Positions 1,588 to 9,848 of a DNA stretch of 20,095 nt are shown here, in pieces. Source of the stretch: a virus; the IMG/VR virus record IMGVR_UViG_3300031703_000074, positions 1-20,095 of that record; one strand, 5' to 3'. Under the pieces are notes generated by a model that saw only the letters and a program-made list of their open reading frames with translations, did no database searches and was not told the origin of the DNA. The translations under genes and the position numbers were made by a program. Position 1 is the stretch's first letter. Each line of letters begins with the position of its first letter.

Positions 1588-1616
1588 ATTATAACATAGA
1601 TACACCAGTTTGTACA
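1588..1616 (-). promoter_or_regulatory. Early-type promoter (TGTACA-N17-TATAAT) for gp44
   Basis: On the minus strand the -35-like TGTACA lies at 1616-1611, then 17 bases, then TATAAT at 1593-1588, preceded by TGT (extended -10). It sits between the dsbA stop and the gp44 start. Flanks are almost the same as at the gp47 promoter: GTTG before TGTACA, TATG before the -10, GGTACAT just after it. It should be read by host sigma-70-type RNA polymerase. The -35 recalls the GTTTAC of T4 early promoters. Confidence 0.8.
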
Positions 1617-2627: not shown

Positions 2628-2656
2628 ATTATATCACGATATTAGTGAAGTGTACA
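2628..2656 (-). promoter_or_regulatory. Early-type promoter (TGTACA-N17-TATAAT) for gp45-dsbA
   Basis: On the minus strand TGTACA lies at 2656-2651 and TATAAT at 2633-2628, exactly 17 bases apart, with the extended element TGA directly before TATAAT. It is in the 74-base gap between the gp46 stop and the gp45 start. Geometry matches the other four members of the family in this window. Confidence 0.8.
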
Positions 2657-2664
2657 CTCTTTTT

Positions 2665-4380
2665 TTATTTAATTTTACTAAAGTTGCGATCTTTTATGAA
2701 TTCGATCTTACTGCGGAACTTACTCTCTAATATCTCACCCTTATGTGAGATGACGAACACATTGGTACCTTCATCTAACGTATTAAGGATTTTCATTAGA
2801 TTTTCTACACCATCATGATCCATGGATGAATCAAAAGTCTCATCGAGTATCAATAAGTTTGTGTTAGTAGAATTCTTCATACGTGCAATTTGACGCCATG
2901 TGAACATTAGTGCCAAATCGATACGTGTCTTTTCGCCTTCAGAGAATGATTCATATGAGAAGTTATCCCTATGGCGTGAACGTATACTTTCATCAAAGTT
3001 CTCATCTAGATTAAATGACACAAAAAAGTCAAGAATCTGTAGGTAACTATTGATTAACTTATTCATTACAGGCAAGTATTCTTTAATTACCTTAGTCTTA
3101 ATGCCTGTGTCCTTTAGCATTTCTGCGATGACGATAGCATATGAAATCTCTTCGTTGATCTGATACTTACGATCTGAAAGTTGTAACTTAGTCTCTTGCA
3201 ATTCATTTAGTTCAAGCTTAGCCTTTTCAATGTCGCTATTACTTGCAGTACTATTAAGGATTTCTGATTCAAGCGTTGCAATATTAGCATCGACATTGGC
3301 GATATTAGCTTCGGTAAGTTTGAGTGTCATCTTTATGTCACGCTTCTTTTTTAGCTTATCGCTAATAGTTTCAATGGTATTCAATACCTCACTGAATTCA
3401 GTCTCAAGTGTATTCTTAGTGGTTATCCTTGATTTAGCGTTGTTACTAATATCAGATATTTTAGACTTACGCAATGATTCATCTATTATCTGTGTACAAG
3501 AAGGGCACTCATCGTTCGATGAATAGAACTTAGATTCAGTCATTAGAACCTTTAATTCGTTATTTAAGGTGTGCAGATCCATAGTTAGAGCAGTCTTTCT
3601 ATCAGAAATAGAGCTTAAGCTTGACTCTGTGATAGTATCAAATTCATCCAACCATTCATTAAGGTTATCCTTTTCAGACGTATATCCTGCCTTGTCACCT
3701 TTAAACTTCGTGATAGATTCACGTTTAGTTTCTGCAATACTCTCAGAAGCCTTTGCCATATCCTTAATATACTTTGACTGCATATCAATCTTTGAGGACT
3801 GAAGAGTAATCTCTTGAGTGATAGACTTATAGTCTTCCTTAATACGTGCTGAGTTCTCTTTAAGTAATCCATTCATTTTAGAGAATATATTGATGTCTAA
3901 CAAGTCTTCAATTACTTCACGCCGATACGAAGATTTAAGCTGCATAAACGGTACAAAGGAAGATGATCCTAATACTACAATCTGATGGAAAGACTTATGG
4001 TTAAGCTTTAGAATATTCTGTTCTAAATACTTCTGATAGTCACGAGTGGTTGAGCTCTGATTAATCATATGGCCATTCTGCCATATCTCAAAGATACCTG
4101 GCTTAATACCACGTTTAATCTCAAACTTATGATTACCGATATCGAACTTAACCGTAACCTCACAGTTCTTCATATTAATAGAGTTAAGCAATGCTGGCTT
4201 ATTAATATCACGATGTGGTTTACCAAACAATGCAAAAGAAATTGCATCTAAGATAGTAGACTTACCTGCACCATTTGCACCGACAATAAGAGTCGTAGGA
4301 CTACGGTCTAATTGAATTAGTGTAGGTGTATCACCAGTTGATAGAAAATTGCGGTATTCTATAGACTTAAACGTTATCAT
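2665..4380 (-). CDS. 46: Recombination nuclease ATPase subunit gp46 (Rad50/SbcC-like)
   Basis: This 571-residue protein (T4 gp46 has 560) is the SMC-like ATPase that works with gp47 to resect DNA ends for recombination-dependent replication and host DNA breakdown. The N-terminal lobe has Walker A GANGAGKS at 34-41. Two coiled-coil arms (about 170-285 and 300-425) flank a zinc hook C292-P-S-C295. The C-terminal lobe has the ABC signature SFSEGEKTR at 478-486, Walker B NLLILDETFD at 508-517 and the H-loop ISHK at 544-547. All key residues are intact. The start overlaps the end of gp47 as ATGA, so the two are translationally coupled and made together from the promoter at 5484-5456. Confidence 0.96.
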   Translation of the reverse strand: MITFKSIEYRNFLSTGDTPTLIQLDRSPTTLIVGANGAGKSTILDAISFALFGKPHRDINKPALLNSINMKNCEVTVKFDIGNHKFEIKRGIKPGIFEIWQNGHMINQSSTTRDYQKYLEQNILKLNHKSFHQIVVLGSSSFVPFMQLKSSYRREVIEDLLDINIFSKMNGLLKENSARIKEDYKSITQEITLQSSKIDMQSKYIKDMAKASESIAETKRESITKFKGDKAGYTSEKDNLNEWLDEFDTITESSLSSISDRKTALTMDLHTLNNELKVLMTESKFYSSNDECPSCTQIIDESLRKSKISDISNNAKSRITTKNTLETEFSEVLNTIETISDKLKKKRDIKMTLKLTEANIANVDANIATLESEILNSTASNSDIEKAKLELNELQETKLQLSDRKYQINEEISYAIVIAEMLKDTGIKTKVIKEYLPVMNKLINSYLQILDFFVSFNLDENFDESIRSRHRDNFSYESFSEGEKTRIDLALMFTWRQIARMKNSTNTNLLILDETFDSSMDHDGVENLMKILNTLDEGTNVFVISHKGEILESKFRSKIEFIKDRNFSKIK

Positions 4381-5455: not shown

Positions 5456-5484
5456 ATTATAACATAGTACAGTCAATTTGTACA
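5456..5484 (-). promoter_or_regulatory. Early-type promoter (TGTACA-N17-TATAAT) for gp47-gp46
   Basis: On the minus strand TGTACA is at 5484-5479 and TATAAT at 5461-5456, 17 bases apart, with TGT directly before the -10. It begins only seven bases after the stop codon of the oxygenase-like gene. The surrounding 50 bases are nearly a copy of those at the gp44 promoter. Confidence 0.8.
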
Positions 5485-5491
5485 CAACTAT

Positions 5492-6592
5492 TTACGCATA
5501 AACGGCTTCTTTTTTCAAAGGATTAGCTGGATCTACGTTTAAGTACTTTCCCCATTCTGCATAGAAGTGACGCATACCAACTTCGTCATGAATAGTATTA
5601 TTTTCATGTCTGCCGTGCAGTATATTCCTTCGTTCAGTACCAGGAGCCATTGCTACACCTTGACCTGTAACTGCTAATAAGTCTTCGTGCAAGTTACGTC
5701 CGAATGGTCCCCATATAGTATTATGATGATCTATACGCTTCTTGCGATCTTCAGCAGAATCACTTAATAGGCCATATCCACGGAACTCAATTAATACGCT
5801 ATCTGGTCCTAATGGTGTAATACTATCTGTGCGGTATGCAGAGCCTCGAAGATTAAAGTTATATCCTGGAAACAAGTCTACCATATACCATTGATTAGGA
5901 GGAACGCCAGGAAAACTTAATGCGCCACGATCTCCTGCACCTTCAAACTTATCATACTGTACTTCAAAGCTACCTACGTTTACATGTCCGTTATCAAATC
6001 CTGTACAAGGACGGGCAAAGTAATCATCGTTAAAGCCAGTAATGCGATTGAAGTAATGCAAATAGTCATGGTAAAACTCACTATTAGTATCATGCCATAG
6101 CTTATAGTTTGTTGGAATAATTGCTTTATGATAGTGAAATACCTCTAGTTCTTCTGTGTCAATTGCTGTAGCAATACAGTCGAAAGATCCGTCTGTCCAT
6201 TGCTCTACGTCCATAGTTGGGTTTGTGTTTAGTGTTGTCCACACCATACCGCCGTACTTTACTTCTGAATGAAGTTCCCTACTAGTTTTAATGACTTCTT
6301 CTAAATGTGTATGACCATGTGAAATATTACCAGATACACCGGTAATTCCAGGATTAATATAACATCCAATGCGCTCACCAAGATTTATGATAATAATATT
6401 TTTAAACGCAATTTGTGATGTTCTGTAGTCACCCTTATTCTTTATCTCACTCTTATGAATGATAGGGATCCAAACTTTAGCAAATATCTCTTTAATTTCT
6501 GCTTCGTAAATTTCCTGACTACTATAACATTCGCTACTAATATGCTCAACTGATGGTTCTGATAACCAATCTTTATGACTGCGTGATGCCAT
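5492..6592 (-). CDS. Ring-hydroxylating oxygenase alpha-subunit-like protein lacking the Rieske cluster ligands
   Basis: This 366-residue protein resembles the large subunit of Rieske non-heme iron oxygenases. The N-terminal part (about 30-80) reads like a Rieske-domain edge (EIFAKVWIPIIHKSEI, NKGDYRT). The cluster-binding pattern C-x-H...C-x2-H is missing: the only cysteines are C22, C77, C139 and C196, and the region after GCYINPG is shortened. The catalytic domain is better kept: NYKLWHDTNSEFYHDYLH at 162-179 holds candidate iron ligands H175 and H179 (one residue closer together than the usual H-x4-H), and LHEDLLAVTGQG at 301-312 holds a candidate third ligand D304. The C-terminal IDHHNTIWGPFGRNL segment is typical of the family. 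I chose ATG 6592 (GGAG six bases upstream) over an in-frame TTG at 6604. It follows gp55 by 15 bases and has no promoter of its own. It is an auxiliary gene with no T4 counterpart; substrate unknown. Confidence 0.75.
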   Translation of the reverse strand: MASRSHKDWLSEPSVEHISSECYSSQEIYEAEIKEIFAKVWIPIIHKSEIKNKGDYRTSQIAFKNIIIINLGERIGCYINPGITGVSGNISHGHTHLEEVIKTSRELHSEVKYGGMVWTTLNTNPTMDVEQWTDGSFDCIATAIDTEELEVFHYHKAIIPTNYKLWHDTNSEFYHDYLHYFNRITGFNDDYFARPCTGFDNGHVNVGSFEVQYDKFEGAGDRGALSFPGVPPNQWYMVDLFPGYNFNLRGSAYRTDSITPLGPDSVLIEFRGYGLLSDSAEDRKKRIDHHNTIWGPFGRNLHEDLLAVTGQGVAMAPGTERRNILHGRHENNTIHDEVGMRHFYAEWGKYLNVDPANPLKKEAVYA

Positions 6593-6598
6593 GGTCTT

Positions 6599-6602
6599 CT
6601 CC
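6599..6602 (-). promoter_or_regulatory. Ribosome binding site deciding the oxygenase-like gene start
   Basis: GGAG on the minus strand sits six bases before ATG 6592-6590. It overlaps the alternative in-frame TTG at 6604, which makes the ATG the better start. Confidence 0.7.
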
Positions 6603-6607
6603 AACGT

Positions 6608-7195
6608 TTATTCGTTTAATTCTTTTTCCATAAACTTGCCAAGATTCTTCTCCTGTGACAATATTTTATGCTTAACATGCAACTGTTCAGGCTCTTTACT
6701 ATTAGTCTCTTTCTCTCTAATTTTATCGTAATTAGTCCTGAGCTCTTCAATAAATGCTGTATCATAATCACCATTATTGTCCGCAGTCACAAACTCATCA
6801 AATCCTGACATTTCGATGTATTTGAATTTAATGTCATGCTGACGTTTTTCTTTAGCAATCCGACGTAAGAATGCAAACCAAGAGATTTGTGTAAAGTATG
6901 CAAAGGCATTAGGCTTACCTGTTCTGGTAGCAGCTTCAATATTATAATTTTTAATTGCCTTTAGACAGTTTTCAACTGCATCCATAACCATCTCATCTCT
7001 ATAGGAGTACCTAATGAAATTAGATTTATGAGATAGTCCCTCTGAAATCTTCATAAAGCAAGACGCAATATAATCAGTTACCTTAGGAAAATCTTCTTCT
7101 GCAGCTTCGGCATCATTAACGGTTTTAACGTAGGCCACAACAGCTTCTGAGAATTCCCTATTGTTAACGTAATGTTCTCTCTCTTTAGGTTTCAT
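6608..7195 (-). CDS. 55: Late-transcription sigma factor gp55
   Basis: This 195-residue protein (T4 gp55 has 185) is the small sigma-70-family factor that directs host RNA polymerase to the TATAAATA late promoters. Shared features with T4 gp55 are the early YVNNREF (T4 YVNNKEL), ISEGLSHKSNFIRYSYRDEMVMDAVENCLKAIKNYN (the region-2-like helices), and the PNAFAYFTQISWFAFLRRIAKEKRQ segment. AGAGA precedes the ATG at 7195. It is the first gene behind the minus-strand promoter at 7254-7226, and the oxygenase-like gene follows. Four TATAAATA boxes in this window are its expected targets. Confidence 0.93.
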   Translation of the reverse strand: MKPKEREHYVNNREFSEAVVAYVKTVNDAEAAEEDFPKVTDYIASCFMKISEGLSHKSNFIRYSYRDEMVMDAVENCLKAIKNYNIEAATRTGKPNAFAYFTQISWFAFLRRIAKEKRQHDIKFKYIEMSGFDEFVTADNNGDYDTAFIEELRTNYDKIREKETNSKEPEQLHVKHKILSQEKNLGKFMEKELNE

Positions 7196-7225: not shown

Positions 7226-7254
7226 ATTATATCACGTTTAACCTCATTTGTACA
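7226..7254 (-). promoter_or_regulatory. Early-type promoter (TGTACA-N17-TATAAT) for gp55
   Basis: On the minus strand TGTACA lies at 7254-7249 and TATAAT at 7231-7226, 17 bases apart, with TGA before the -10. The downstream leader is very AT-rich. It fires away from the plus-strand promoter at 7292, with 37 bases between the two TGTACA boxes. Confidence 0.8.
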
Positions 7255-7291: not shown

Positions 7292-7320
7292 TGTACAGAT
7301 CCCTCTAACTGTGATATAAT
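7292..7320 (+). promoter_or_regulatory. Plus-strand early-type promoter with no gene downstream
   Basis: TGTACA at 7292-7297, 17 bases, then TATAAT at 7315-7320, with TGA directly before the -10. The match to the four minus-strand promoters is exact in both hexamers, spacing and extended -10. A transcript would start near 7327 and run antisense into the 3' end of uvsW. I see no ribosome binding site plus open frame in front of it, so the product is unknown (possible non-coding or antisense RNA). Confidence 0.7.
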
Positions 7321-7372
7321 AAGACTGTAGTCTGCTGAGGGGTAGAATACAATATTGGTGGTACTTTAAAAG

Positions 7373-8866
7373 CTAAAGCTTTACTTCGTATATTTGATAT
7401 TTGAACTTCTCTTTAGAATACATTTTAACTCTCTCTGCACCATGGTTAAGTGTATAGTTCTTTCTAGATTTAAAGTGCAAATCATCAGTTACGTCGAATA
7501 AAAAGGTATCTGTGCCGTCATCTGACTTACGCAGTCCACGTCCAACACTCTGTAATACTCTTATTTGACTCTTACTTGGAGAAGCAAATATAATATTATG
7601 GATGTTACGTATATTTATACCTGTAGAAAATACACCATATGAAGCAACAATAATAGCATTCTTTTGTTTCTCGGTTACTTCTCTTATGGCCTCACGGTCA
7701 TCCACACCAGTAGCACCGGATACAAAGAATATCATTCTCTTCTCATGCGCAGCTTGTTCTATTAATTTATGTAATGGCTTACCATGCTTATCCACATATT
7801 GAAATAGAACTAATGTATTACCATCCTGATCTATCGCAAGATTCTTAATAAAGTTATTACGCTTCTCATGTCTAACAATATAATCCATCTCTTCGGCATA
7901 AGTCTTCTTACCAAATGATTTACACTCAGCTTCTCCATACTTCATGATAAGCATTTGAATGTCAAGCTTAGCTATATCATCGTTATCCATCAAGCTTTTA
8001 GTAGTGGTAACTTGCTTAATAGGTCCAAATAAACCTTGAAGCGTCAACGCATTTGTTTCCATGCCATCTAATGTACCCGTTGTGCCAATACGATACTCAG
8101 CATTATAGAGTTTAGTCATGATTGCAGTAAGTGATTTAGCTTTAAATTGATGTGCCTCATCTCCAATAACCATACCAAAGTCTTCAAACCATCCTGCACG
8201 TAACTTATATATTGACTGCCAAGTTGTTATTACGACTCTTTCAGAAAACTTCTCTTTCTCTTTGCCTGAATATATCTTATGTGAAGGATAATATTCACCA
8301 TTATAATCAGAGAAATCAGACGCTAATTGTTCTACCAAAGATGTTGTAGGTACAATAATTAATATGTTCTTATCACGGTTATCTATGTACCAACGCAATA
8401 ATTTGTATATTATTAACGATTTACCTGATGCTGTAGGTGATAGTAACAGCGCCTTCTTTCTTTCCAATGCGTGCTGGAATGCAGCGATCTGATAATCTCT
8501 TGCCACAATTTGATTCACACCAGCCCTTAGGTTTAAGCTCTGTGCGTATTCGATACACTCATCAACAGGTATATTCTCATATGAATCAGGTCGACCATAA
8601 TAATCCGAATCAATACATTCAACAGTGTAACTACGAGCAGCTGCAAATTCTAGAACATACTCATATAGACCTGCATACAACTCTCTTGTTCTAGAGTTAA
8701 ATAAACGGATCTTGCCATCCCACATTTTATTCTTATATGCTGGAGTGAATTTATAGTTAGGCACAAAGAATGTAAAATGATCTACCAATTCATTGGCAAT
8801 ACTATAATCACATTCTATGTTAATGTATACGTAATTCTTATTATTAATAACTATGTCTGATGTCAT
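7373..8866 (-). CDS. uvsW: UvsW-like DNA/RNA helicase
   Basis: This 497-residue superfamily-2 helicase matches T4 UvsW, which unwinds R-loops and branched DNA, ends origin-dependent initiation and supports recombination-dependent replication. The N-terminal domain (1-100) holds the FTPAYKNKMWDGKIRLF pattern seen in UvsW (RFNPRFRYGNWDGRIRLL in T4). Helicase motifs follow: Walker A SPTASGKS at 143-150, motif Ia VPTTSLVEQ near 172, DEAH at 236-239, TGT at 263-265, and motif VI QSVGRGLRK at 439-447. The start at 8866 has GGAG six bases upstream and lies one base after the uvsY stop codon, so the two are coupled. Its 3' end faces the orphan plus-strand promoter at 7292. Confidence 0.94.
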   Translation of the reverse strand: MTSDIVINNKNYVYINIECDYSIANELVDHFTFFVPNYKFTPAYKNKMWDGKIRLFNSRTRELYAGLYEYVLEFAAARSYTVECIDSDYYGRPDSYENIPVDECIEYAQSLNLRAGVNQIVARDYQIAAFQHALERKKALLLSPTASGKSLIIYKLLRWYIDNRDKNILIIVPTTSLVEQLASDFSDYNGEYYPSHKIYSGKEKEKFSERVVITTWQSIYKLRAGWFEDFGMVIGDEAHQFKAKSLTAIMTKLYNAEYRIGTTGTLDGMETNALTLQGLFGPIKQVTTTKSLMDNDDIAKLDIQMLIMKYGEAECKSFGKKTYAEEMDYIVRHEKRNNFIKNLAIDQDGNTLVLFQYVDKHGKPLHKLIEQAAHEKRMIFFVSGATGVDDREAIREVTEKQKNAIIVASYGVFSTGINIRNIHNIIFASPSKSQIRVLQSVGRGLRKSDDGTDTFLFDVTDDLHFKSRKNYTLNHGAERVKMYSKEKFKYQIYEVKL

Positions 8867-8867
8867 A

Positions 8868-9311
8868 TTAGGCTCCGCTAACGAATTGTCTCCATTTGAT
8901 CATATTGCCAATATTCTGGTGTCTCCATTGAATATTACTCATGATCTCCTTTAATGTATCTACTAATGCTTTGCGATATTCTATTTGCATAGTAACTTTT
9001 TGAATATCTTCATCGGCATTATAATAGTAATCCATATCTCCCTTCAGTACTTTCATACCATGGAACGGATCATATTCCCAACCTTCGGCTTCAATTTGTG
9101 CGGCGGTCATTTTGCCGTTGTAGTATAGCCACTTCAACTTGAGTAAAGATTGTAGGGATTGCTCTTTGCTTTTTAAATGCAGCTTAGCTGTCATGTACTT
9201 GGACAAGTACTTTGAGTGCAGCTTAGCGGAATCACGAGACGCATCATCTAATGCCATCTCGTTAATTTCTGAGTCTGTTGTCCATTCACTTAAAACATCA
9301 TCTAAATTCAT
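8868..9311 (-). CDS. uvsY: UvsY recombination mediator
   Basis: This 147-residue protein (T4 UvsY has 137) is the mediator that loads the UvsX recombinase onto gp32-coated single-stranded DNA. It is mostly helical and charged. It shares with T4 UvsY the LHSKYLSKYMTAKLHLKSKEQ helix near residues 31-51 (T4 MLYSKWLNKHSSIKKEML), the LKLKWLYYNGKM motif near 57-68, and the later DEDIQKVTMQIEYRKALVDTLKEIM helix. GAGA precedes the ATG at 9311. The order uvsY-uvsW with a one-base gap matches T4 and supports the call. Confidence 0.88.
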   Translation of the reverse strand: MNLDDVLSEWTTDSEINEMALDDASRDSAKLHSKYLSKYMTAKLHLKSKEQSLQSLLKLKWLYYNGKMTAAQIEAEGWEYDPFHGMKVLKGDMDYYYNADEDIQKVTMQIEYRKALVDTLKEIMSNIQWRHQNIGNMIKWRQFVSGA

Positions 9312-9329: not shown

Positions 9330-9788
9330 TTATTCGAAAAGGAACTCTGAGTATCTAAAAGAAACATCAAAGGTTAGGTATTCTTCTGACTGTGAAGTGA
9401 ATGCTAACTGAGCAATGTTTGTAGGAAATGCATCCTTATACCTTATAGTCTTCACTACATTACTATGTGACGAAAGCACCTGCAAGGATATATCCTCTGT
9501 TACCGATTTTTGTGATTGCACCACACTTTTCAGCCACTCGACCATTTCAATATATGAAGTCATATTTTCGTCGATTATAATTGATACTGTTAATGTGCCA
9601 TAACTTACCGTATCACCTGGTATAAAACTGTTAAGACCTGGAATGTTTAATGTGCCTTCACCAACGAATACATCCGGATGATTCACCGCAGTGCAAAAAT
9701 ACTCTGTGTTGGCATATCGTGTACTATCTATAACTAGCTTAAATCCTATTGGATTTAAATAGTTTTTATTCGTCGTTAGTGTTGCCAT
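9330..9788 (-). CDS. Second tail-tube-fold protein (gp19 paralogue)
   Basis: This 152-residue protein resembles the tail tube protein gp19 encoded at 15215-14682. Shared points along the fold are an N-terminal F-x-L strand, a central strand pair ending GTLTVSIIIDENM (gp19: WGLTIINDTDM), the helix EMVEWLKSV (gp19: AFEKWMNSI), then YKDAFPTNIAQLAF (gp19: FRDVWPTNLSAIEL) and EYLTFDVSFRYSEF (gp19: EEFTVELQLSYWEA). The start is ATG 9788, with GGAG eight bases before it. It is the first gene behind a late promoter at 9816-9809, after the gp23 terminator. Cyanophages usually have a gene labelled gp3 between genes 23 and uvsY, so it may fill that role. It could be a tube cap, tube initiator or minor tube component; the exact role is not resolved. 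Confidence 0.7.
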   Translation of the reverse strand: MATLTTNKNYLNPIGFKLVIDSTRYANTEYFCTAVNHPDVFVGEGTLNIPGLNSFIPGDTVSYGTLTVSIIIDENMTSYIEMVEWLKSVVQSQKSVTEDISLQVLSSHSNVVKTIRYKDAFPTNIAQLAFTSQSEEYLTFDVSFRYSEFLFE

Positions 9789-9796
9789 ATTACGTT

Positions 9797-9800
9797 CTCC
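9797..9800 (-). promoter_or_regulatory. Ribosome binding site deciding the start at 9788
   Basis: GGAG on the minus strand lies eight bases before ATG 9788. An upstream in-frame start near 9821 would fall inside the terminator and ahead of the late promoter, so it is excluded. Confidence 0.75.
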
Positions 9801-9808
9801 TATACCAC

Positions 9809-9816
9809 TATTTATA
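9809..9816 (-). promoter_or_regulatory. T4-type late promoter TATAAATA
   Basis: A perfect TATAAATA box on the minus strand, placed directly after the gp23 terminator. Transcription would begin about six bases further on, near 9803, giving a leader of roughly 15 bases with the ribosome binding site for the gene at 9788. Confidence 0.85.
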
Positions 9817-9821
9817 CGCAT

Positions 9822-9848
9822 AAAAAAAGGGAGCCTTTCGACTCCCTT
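9822..9848 (-). terminator. Intrinsic terminator after gp23
   Basis: On the minus strand AAGGGAG pairs perfectly with CTCCCTT (seven base pairs, eight-base loop) and is followed by a run of seven T at 9828-9822. This is a classic intrinsic terminator placed to end the highly expressed capsid transcript. Confidence 0.9.

Follow-up and report, generated by a model that had tools for sequence, protein, structure and literature searches.

A predicted non-coding promoter facing the wrong way is conserved at the end of the uvsW late unit in marine T4-like phages

What does a promoter do when it points against every gene around it and has no gene of its own to serve? The question is raised by the window, the whole stretch of viral DNA analysed here (20,095 bases; IMG/VR record IMGVR_UViG_3300031703_000074, positions 1 to 20,095). 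A preliminary description of this DNA had called a plus-strand site identical to four gene-linked promoters and opposed to every gene. Both statements proved correct. The TGTACA, the 17-base spacer (GATCCCTCTAACTGTGA), the TATAAT and the TG of the extended -10 were all verified, and the large credible genes of the window all lie on the minus strand. The promoter features are as follows.

7292..7297, plus strand: -35 hexamer TGTACA of the antisense promoter (direct reading and exact-pattern search)
7312..7313, plus strand: TG of the extended -10 of the antisense promoter (direct reading)
7315..7320, plus strand: -10 hexamer TATAAT of the antisense promoter (direct reading and exact-pattern search)
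7327, plus strand: G at the expected transcription start, 7 nt past the -10 (from spacing)
1588..1616, minus strand: gene-linked promoter ahead of the ORF starting at 1558 (exact pattern match)
2628..2656, minus strand: gene-linked promoter ahead of the ORF starting at 2590 (exact pattern match)
5456..5484, minus strand: gene-linked promoter ahead of gp47 (exact pattern match)
7226..7254, minus strand: sense early promoter of gp55 (exact pattern match)

The exact pattern TGTACA-N17-TATAAT occurs five times in the window, once on the plus strand (7292-7320) and four times on the minus strand, against a chance expectation for both strands of 0.02 on average and 1 at most in 300 first-order Markov simulations. 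The reversed pattern, used as a control, has 0 matches in the window. All four minus-strand copies sit directly upstream of minus-strand genes, which start at 1558, 2590, 5426 and 7195; the first of these is clamp-loader-like and the second clamp-like. With -35 and -10 hexamers 17 nt apart, inside the 16-18 nt range of sigma70-type promoters, and a better match than chance would give, the site belongs among them. It stands back to back with the sense promoter of gp55, 37 bases separating the two -35 boxes in the window. The gene-linked promoter at 2628-2656 is overlapped by a weak, sub-threshold match to the ribosomal S15 leader (2629-2715, plus strand; 26 bits against a cut-off of 39.5, E 0.021), which is probably due to chance.

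The neighbouring genes and signals, all on the minus strand, are these.

6608..7195, minus strand: gp55-like late sigma factor (phrog_234, E 9.9e-51)
7373..8866, minus strand: uvsW helicase (PF21241 UvsW_N and helicase domains)
8868..9311, minus strand: uvsY (PF11056)
9330..9821, minus strand: tail-tube-like gene heading the unit (phrog_45; likely start ATG 9788-9786)
9809..9816, minus strand: T4-type late promoter TATAAATA heading the tube-uvsY-uvsW unit (exact motif)
9827..9848, minus strand: intrinsic terminator behind the capsid gene, the sole strict minus-strand terminator in the window

Read leftwards, the minus-strand order is tail-tube-like gene, uvsY, uvsW and the gp55-like gene with its own TGTACA promoter. 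Because the terminator and TATAAATA precede tube-uvsY-uvsW, the antisense promoter lies at the joint of a late-promoter unit and an early operon, the promoter types suggesting late timing for the one and early timing for the other. The first gene that a predicted antisense transcript would meet in the window is uvsW, at its 3' end. As to coding capacity, the preliminary description had seen neither a ribosome binding site nor an open frame behind the promoter. The plus-strand ATG, GTG and TTG starts after G7327 indeed give at most 4 codons before uvsW (TTG 7355, GTG 7358), although GAGGGG near 7339 has the look of a ribosome binding site. Exact TATAAATA occurs six times in the window, always on the minus strand (7612, 9809, 13081, 14674, 16989 and 17523), and the copies at 9809, 13081, 14674 and 16989 fall within about 75 nt of minus-strand gene starts. 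A Rieske/ring-hydroxylating dioxygenase-like gene (5492-6604, minus strand; PF00848, E 8.9e-06) is placed between gp55 and gp47, inside the replication block.

Conservation was examined at 410 loci (IMG/VR loci found through UvsW or through the gp55 of four phages, plus 10 loci of named records). Twelve were omitted for missing or truncated gp55 upstream sequence, and the 398 usable loci represent 226 distinct gp55-upstream regions. Of the 226 regions, 209 have an antisense promoter scoring at least 10/12 in the 250 nt ahead of gp55, compared with 144 of 1001 control windows; at a score of at least 11/12 the counts are 160/226 and 14/1001. Conservation in relatives, which the preliminary description had made part of its test, is borne out by the 209 regions that keep the promoter. 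Among these 209 relatives the -35 is TTGACA in 136, TGTACA in 18 and TTTACA in 16, the -10 is TATAAT in 100, and a G occupies the expected start position in 68% of the aligned sequences. Seventeen regions have no promoter within 250 nt. Eleven of them have one farther upstream (L044, L260, L268, L269, L270, L276, L282, L286, L303, L310 and L319), at the 3' end of a gene we label LSm-like, a label of our own for what the databases annotate as "methylamine utilization" (phrog_471). A good antisense promoter was not found in six regions (L059, L070, L077, L084, L461 and L273). The best hit inside 250 nt is not always the true site, since L426 and L483 have a better one farther upstream.

Ten named records were read directly (Syn9, S-PM2, P-SSM4, S-MS29, S-CAM3, ACG-2014f, S-RIM8, AG-345-O18, HTVC008M and C48C1), and all ten have the antisense promoter. 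In Syn9 the position equivalent to 7327 is at about 123,698 on the minus strand. The strict pattern TTGACA-N17-TANAAT is present at the junction in 6 of 9 whole phage records and is the sole reverse-strand match in 5 of the 9. This uniqueness is limited to the strict pattern, because a looser threshold (11/12, three -35 variants) gives 1 to 30 reverse-strand sites per record in eight records. Two loci, L006 and L007, have a UvsW 100% identical to that of the window and an identical intergenic sequence, and probably come from the same phage population. That this is a functional, non-coding promoter facing the wrong way is a prediction from sequence that these comparisons strongly support.

The gene upstream of the promoter is LSm-like in 217 of the 226 regions and uvsW in 5, those of the window's clade; in the other 4 neither is close by. 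In most relatives the LSm-like gene lies between uvsW and the antisense promoter, and it is absent from the window's clade. The earlier proposal of an RNA antisense to the 3' end of uvsW thus holds for the window but not for most relatives, where the RNA would be antisense to the LSm-like gene. The original observation is right and understated; its link to uvsW is too narrow. The distance from the end of the -10 to the stop codon of the last late gene has a median of 32 nt (interquartile 27-35.5, n = 207), and the expected start is opposite to, and overlaps or abuts, a gene, as in cis-encoded antisense RNAs.

Loci with inserted genes tell which neighbour the promoter follows. The gap between the end of LSm or uvsW and gp55 is at least 230 nt in 24 of 394 loci, mostly from inserted genes, and in 21 of these 24 a promoter of at least 11/12 stands at the LSm 3' end. 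When genes are inserted, the promoter keeps some 30-45 nt behind the late-unit end rather than near gp55. Three loci, L453, L455 and L472, have their best antisense promoter close to gp55, and L483 has a second hit there too. Near-identical relatives occur among the 24 loci, so the independent insertion events are fewer than 24. In L499 the LSm-like gene is separated from uvsW by two genes and followed by three others; the promoter is behind the new last late gene, with one more gene between it and gp55. The promoter is lost in L500 (the L273 record), where four genes separate LSm from gp55. From the insertion loci and L499 we conclude that the late-unit end is what the promoter follows, rather than gp55 or, strictly, uvsW. 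The LSm-gp55 junction is also a recurrent insertion spot, which several different genes have entered (L044, L260, L276, L282, L303, L310, L483, L499 and L500).

Two further elements adjoin the -10.

7322..7333, no strand assigned: inverted repeat AGACT-GT-AGTCT centred on the expected start (direct reading and arm-swap test)
7334..7345, plus strand: G-rich transcript start GCTGAGGGGTAG (alignment, hybrid energies and direct reading)

In the alignment of relatives anchored at the -10, information reaches background level about 25 positions further on. The repeat, directly after the -10, varies in its stem, and its loop mostly contains GT or TGT. A stem score of at least 4 is reached in 134 of 209 sequences (64%), compared with 21% after shuffling and 32% when right halves are swapped between loci; counted over distinct left arms, 46/81 reach it, whereas 1000 swaps gave 17.5 on average and never more than 30. 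The preliminary description had suggested a search for covariation in relatives. Covariation is there in the arms of the start-site repeat, but a conserved RNA body beyond about 25 nt is not. The gp55 sense promoters lack the repeat (17% with a score of at least 4, n = 195), which rules it out as a general promoter feature, and it is absent in some lineages, among them L020, L026 and L034. Transcription from a start 7 nt past the -10 would leave the left arm untranscribed, so the repeat would act as DNA, perhaps as an operator-like dyad or as a hairpin in the opened strand. A similar repeat (AAC.CTGT.AGGGTT-like) follows another, forward promoter in the early small-gene or a similar region of five phages (Syn9 52741, S-PM2 162737, P-SSM4 51125, S-RIM8 41799, S-MS29 9803 and 121186). 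This second occurrence places the repeat in a small promoter class, possibly a distinct early class with a shared regulator.

Searches for a product or an end of the transcript gave little. Rfam has no match at the promoter site up to E 5, and neither a covariance-model match nor a conserved RNA body marks a structured small RNA. Same-residue codon identity, compared in four groups, gives no clear excess of synonymous conservation beside the site: it is 0.558 over the last 20 codons of uvsW in the window's clade, against a mean of 0.577, and 0.545, 0.546 and 0.560 near the gene end in three LSm groups, against 0.523, 0.524 and 0.518. Only 2 of 196 loci have an intrinsic antisense terminator within 900 nt, and a scan over 6 kb in eight isolates found none; a strict sense terminator is present at the junction in 0 of 226 regions. 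These scans reject a terminator role for the site in either direction. With no terminators, the antisense RNA may be long, or may end by other means.

What is conserved, then, is the promoter, its orientation and its attachment to the late-unit end, across the family and with no conserved product or terminators. The RNA sequence beyond about 25 nt seems immaterial, and a promoter kept without its transcript implies that the act of transcribing must matter, which makes action in cis most likely. Function is probably a choice among a few cis roles: silencing, shielding of the late block, or priming of DNA replication. Our tentative preference, held at somewhat less than even confidence, is for an early non-coding promoter that would act in cis against the late uvsY-uvsW unit, through antisense RNA or colliding polymerases. 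The promoter would be a strong early one, of the sigma70 type used by unmodified host RNA polymerase; early polymerases and antisense RNA would enter the late unit from its rear; the messages of that unit, including the one for the R-loop helicase UvsW, would be kept silent until late promoters take over; and antisense transcription would work against read-through across the joint of the late unit and the early gp55 operon. Firing, timing and repressive effect are what we infer; the contrast of early and late promoter types, the fixed place at the unit end and the absent terminators fit antisense action or polymerase collision. Of the three options in the preliminary description (regulatory antisense RNA, small non-coding RNA, replication primer), cis antisense fits best, since the position at the late-unit 3' end is kept despite insertions and no constraint of its own is visible in the RNA body. 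Several observations count against silencing in cis. In L499 about 5.8 kb separate uvsW from the promoter, and the LSm-like gene is the first target in most relatives, so uvsW is not a constant direct target. The promoter is lost in at least one locus, L500, and five other distinct regions have no good one. T4 already times uvsW through a late promoter, according to PMC3016281, which may make a further brake superfluous. Nor does simple interference explain the covarying repeat at the start site.

The most serious competitor, unlikely as we judge it, holds that the site corresponds in position to T4 oriF and is an origin of replication primed by RNA. Leading-strand synthesis towards the late genes would start from an R-loop formed by the early untranslated transcript, for as long as UvsW had not yet removed that R-loop. 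The T4 annotation places oriF behind uvsW, with a primer RNA that heads back to the uvsW 3' end, a geometry that recurs here as geometry only, since the T4 oriF promoter, compared by eye, has no sequence likeness. PMC3016281 describes T4 UvsW as removing origin R-loops, oriE as using an early promoter, and oriE, oriF and oriG as lying at composition shifts. Such an origin would also account for a non-coding promoter conserved without a conserved product. In energy calculations an RNA-DNA hybrid is favoured over the first 20 nt more strongly than at other promoters, but it is predicted to be favourable for no more than the first 20-30 nt and unstable past about 25 nt; after the first 20 nt it compares poorly with random reverse-strand DNA. 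No A+T-rich unwinding element is seen, the best value in the first 100 nt being 0.693 against a background of 0.652 (mean, 196 loci). The minimum of cumulative G-C skew at 4-fold sites is 2.3 kb from the site in Syn9, 2.1 in S-CAM3, 3.7 in S-MS29 and 9.7 in S-RIM8, each with P 0.02 or below, and the right-minus-left skew at the site ranks 9/178, 3/198, 5/179 and 5/170 in the same genomes. In the other 4 of the 8 genomes, however, the minimum is far away or not significant (P-SSM4 has a significant one, P 0.046, at a distance of 53.5 kb), it is capsid-region genes that drive the joint minimum, and the pyrimidine-site component has the opposite, wrong sign in 6/8. The 4-fold-site skew is suggestive but confounded with late and early codon use; all-base whole-genome GC skew was unusable, most of its minima being some 8-23 kb or more away from the site. 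A bolder version, in which the site is the RNA-primed origin of marine T4-like phages (Kyanoviridae) and descends by position from T4 oriF, uvsY having moved away, the primer promoter having been left and the covarying repeat replacing the unwinding element as a docking or hairpin element, is a shade more doubtful still.

Improbable, though worth weighing against these, is a boundary device, in which polymerase at or leaving the promoter would block late read-through into gp55, or the competing divergent promoter would be coupled to gp55 output. In its favour, the junction has no strict terminator in any of the 226 regions, and sense and antisense promoters overlap in the S-MS29 group and exclude each other: of 38 -35/-35 gaps measured there, 35 are negative (binned -20 to -1). 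The promoter nevertheless leaves gp55 and keeps to the late end in 21/24 insertion loci, which also rejects a simple divergent pair with gp55 as the whole story, and its spacing to the gp55 promoter varies from overlapping to about +45. In the S-MS29-group loci L330-L409 the overlap runs through a palindromic -35 of the TTGACAAACTTGTCAA type, which would limit polymerase to one promoter at a time. A short trans-acting small RNA, perhaps with the G-rich run as its active part, seems quite improbable: conservation concentrated in the first 25 nt past the -10 and covarying repeat arms would suit it, but the left arm is upstream of the expected start and hence outside the RNA, and conservation ending at about 25 nt, with no terminator and no Rfam match up to E 5, disfavours a structured RNA acting in trans. 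We give very little credence to a hidden small protein encoded on the strand opposite the upstream gene's end. The LSm-like gene ends in His in 99 of 217 distinct copies, which gives ATG or GTG on the opposite strand, and an SD-like run precedes 41 of these 99 starts; the frames, with a median of 15 codons and a 10th percentile of 1, are nevertheless not convincingly longer than in internal-His controls, whose median is 11, and the start codon is missing in 118/217 LSm-like loci and in the window. Equally hard to credit is a functionless chance or relic sequence, for which nothing speaks beyond the weak promoter-like hits that an A+T-rich genome gives everywhere, and which family-wide conservation amid changing neighbours contradicts.

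Most wrong-way promoters are noise; a very diverse phage family has kept this one while the neighbours of the site change. If silencing in cis is the true role, the site is a widespread early brake on the unit that holds the R-loop helicase. If priming is, it locates a replication origin for very abundant ocean viruses, for which PMC2984593 reports a prediction in one phage, a single theta origin in Syn9. A literature search of titles and abstracts found no report of this promoter, which is not proof that it is unreported.

Among known systems, T4 oriF (ori uvsY) resembles the site in having a promoter behind the 3' end of uvsW that points back at uvsW, and that promoter is active before late transcription, as the T4 annotation and PMC3016281 indicate. 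The T4 promoter, however, is a MotA-dependent middle promoter that also makes uvsY mRNA and is accompanied by an A+T-rich unwinding element, whereas the present site is sigma70-like, non-coding and without such an element, and uvsY is on uvsW's own strand. The early sigma70 promoters of T4-like cyanophages share its -35/-10 architecture, but the forward, repeat-bearing promoters of the five phages precede small forward genes, whereas the present promoter points the opposite way and precedes none. CfrI of S-PM2, as described in PMC2984593 and PMC5931967, is an antisense RNA in a T4-like cyanophage and serves as a precedent for the antisense reading; it is about 225 nt long and spans psbA and a homing endonuclease gene, whereas the promoter described here occupies the uvsW/LSm-gp55 junction and is found family-wide.
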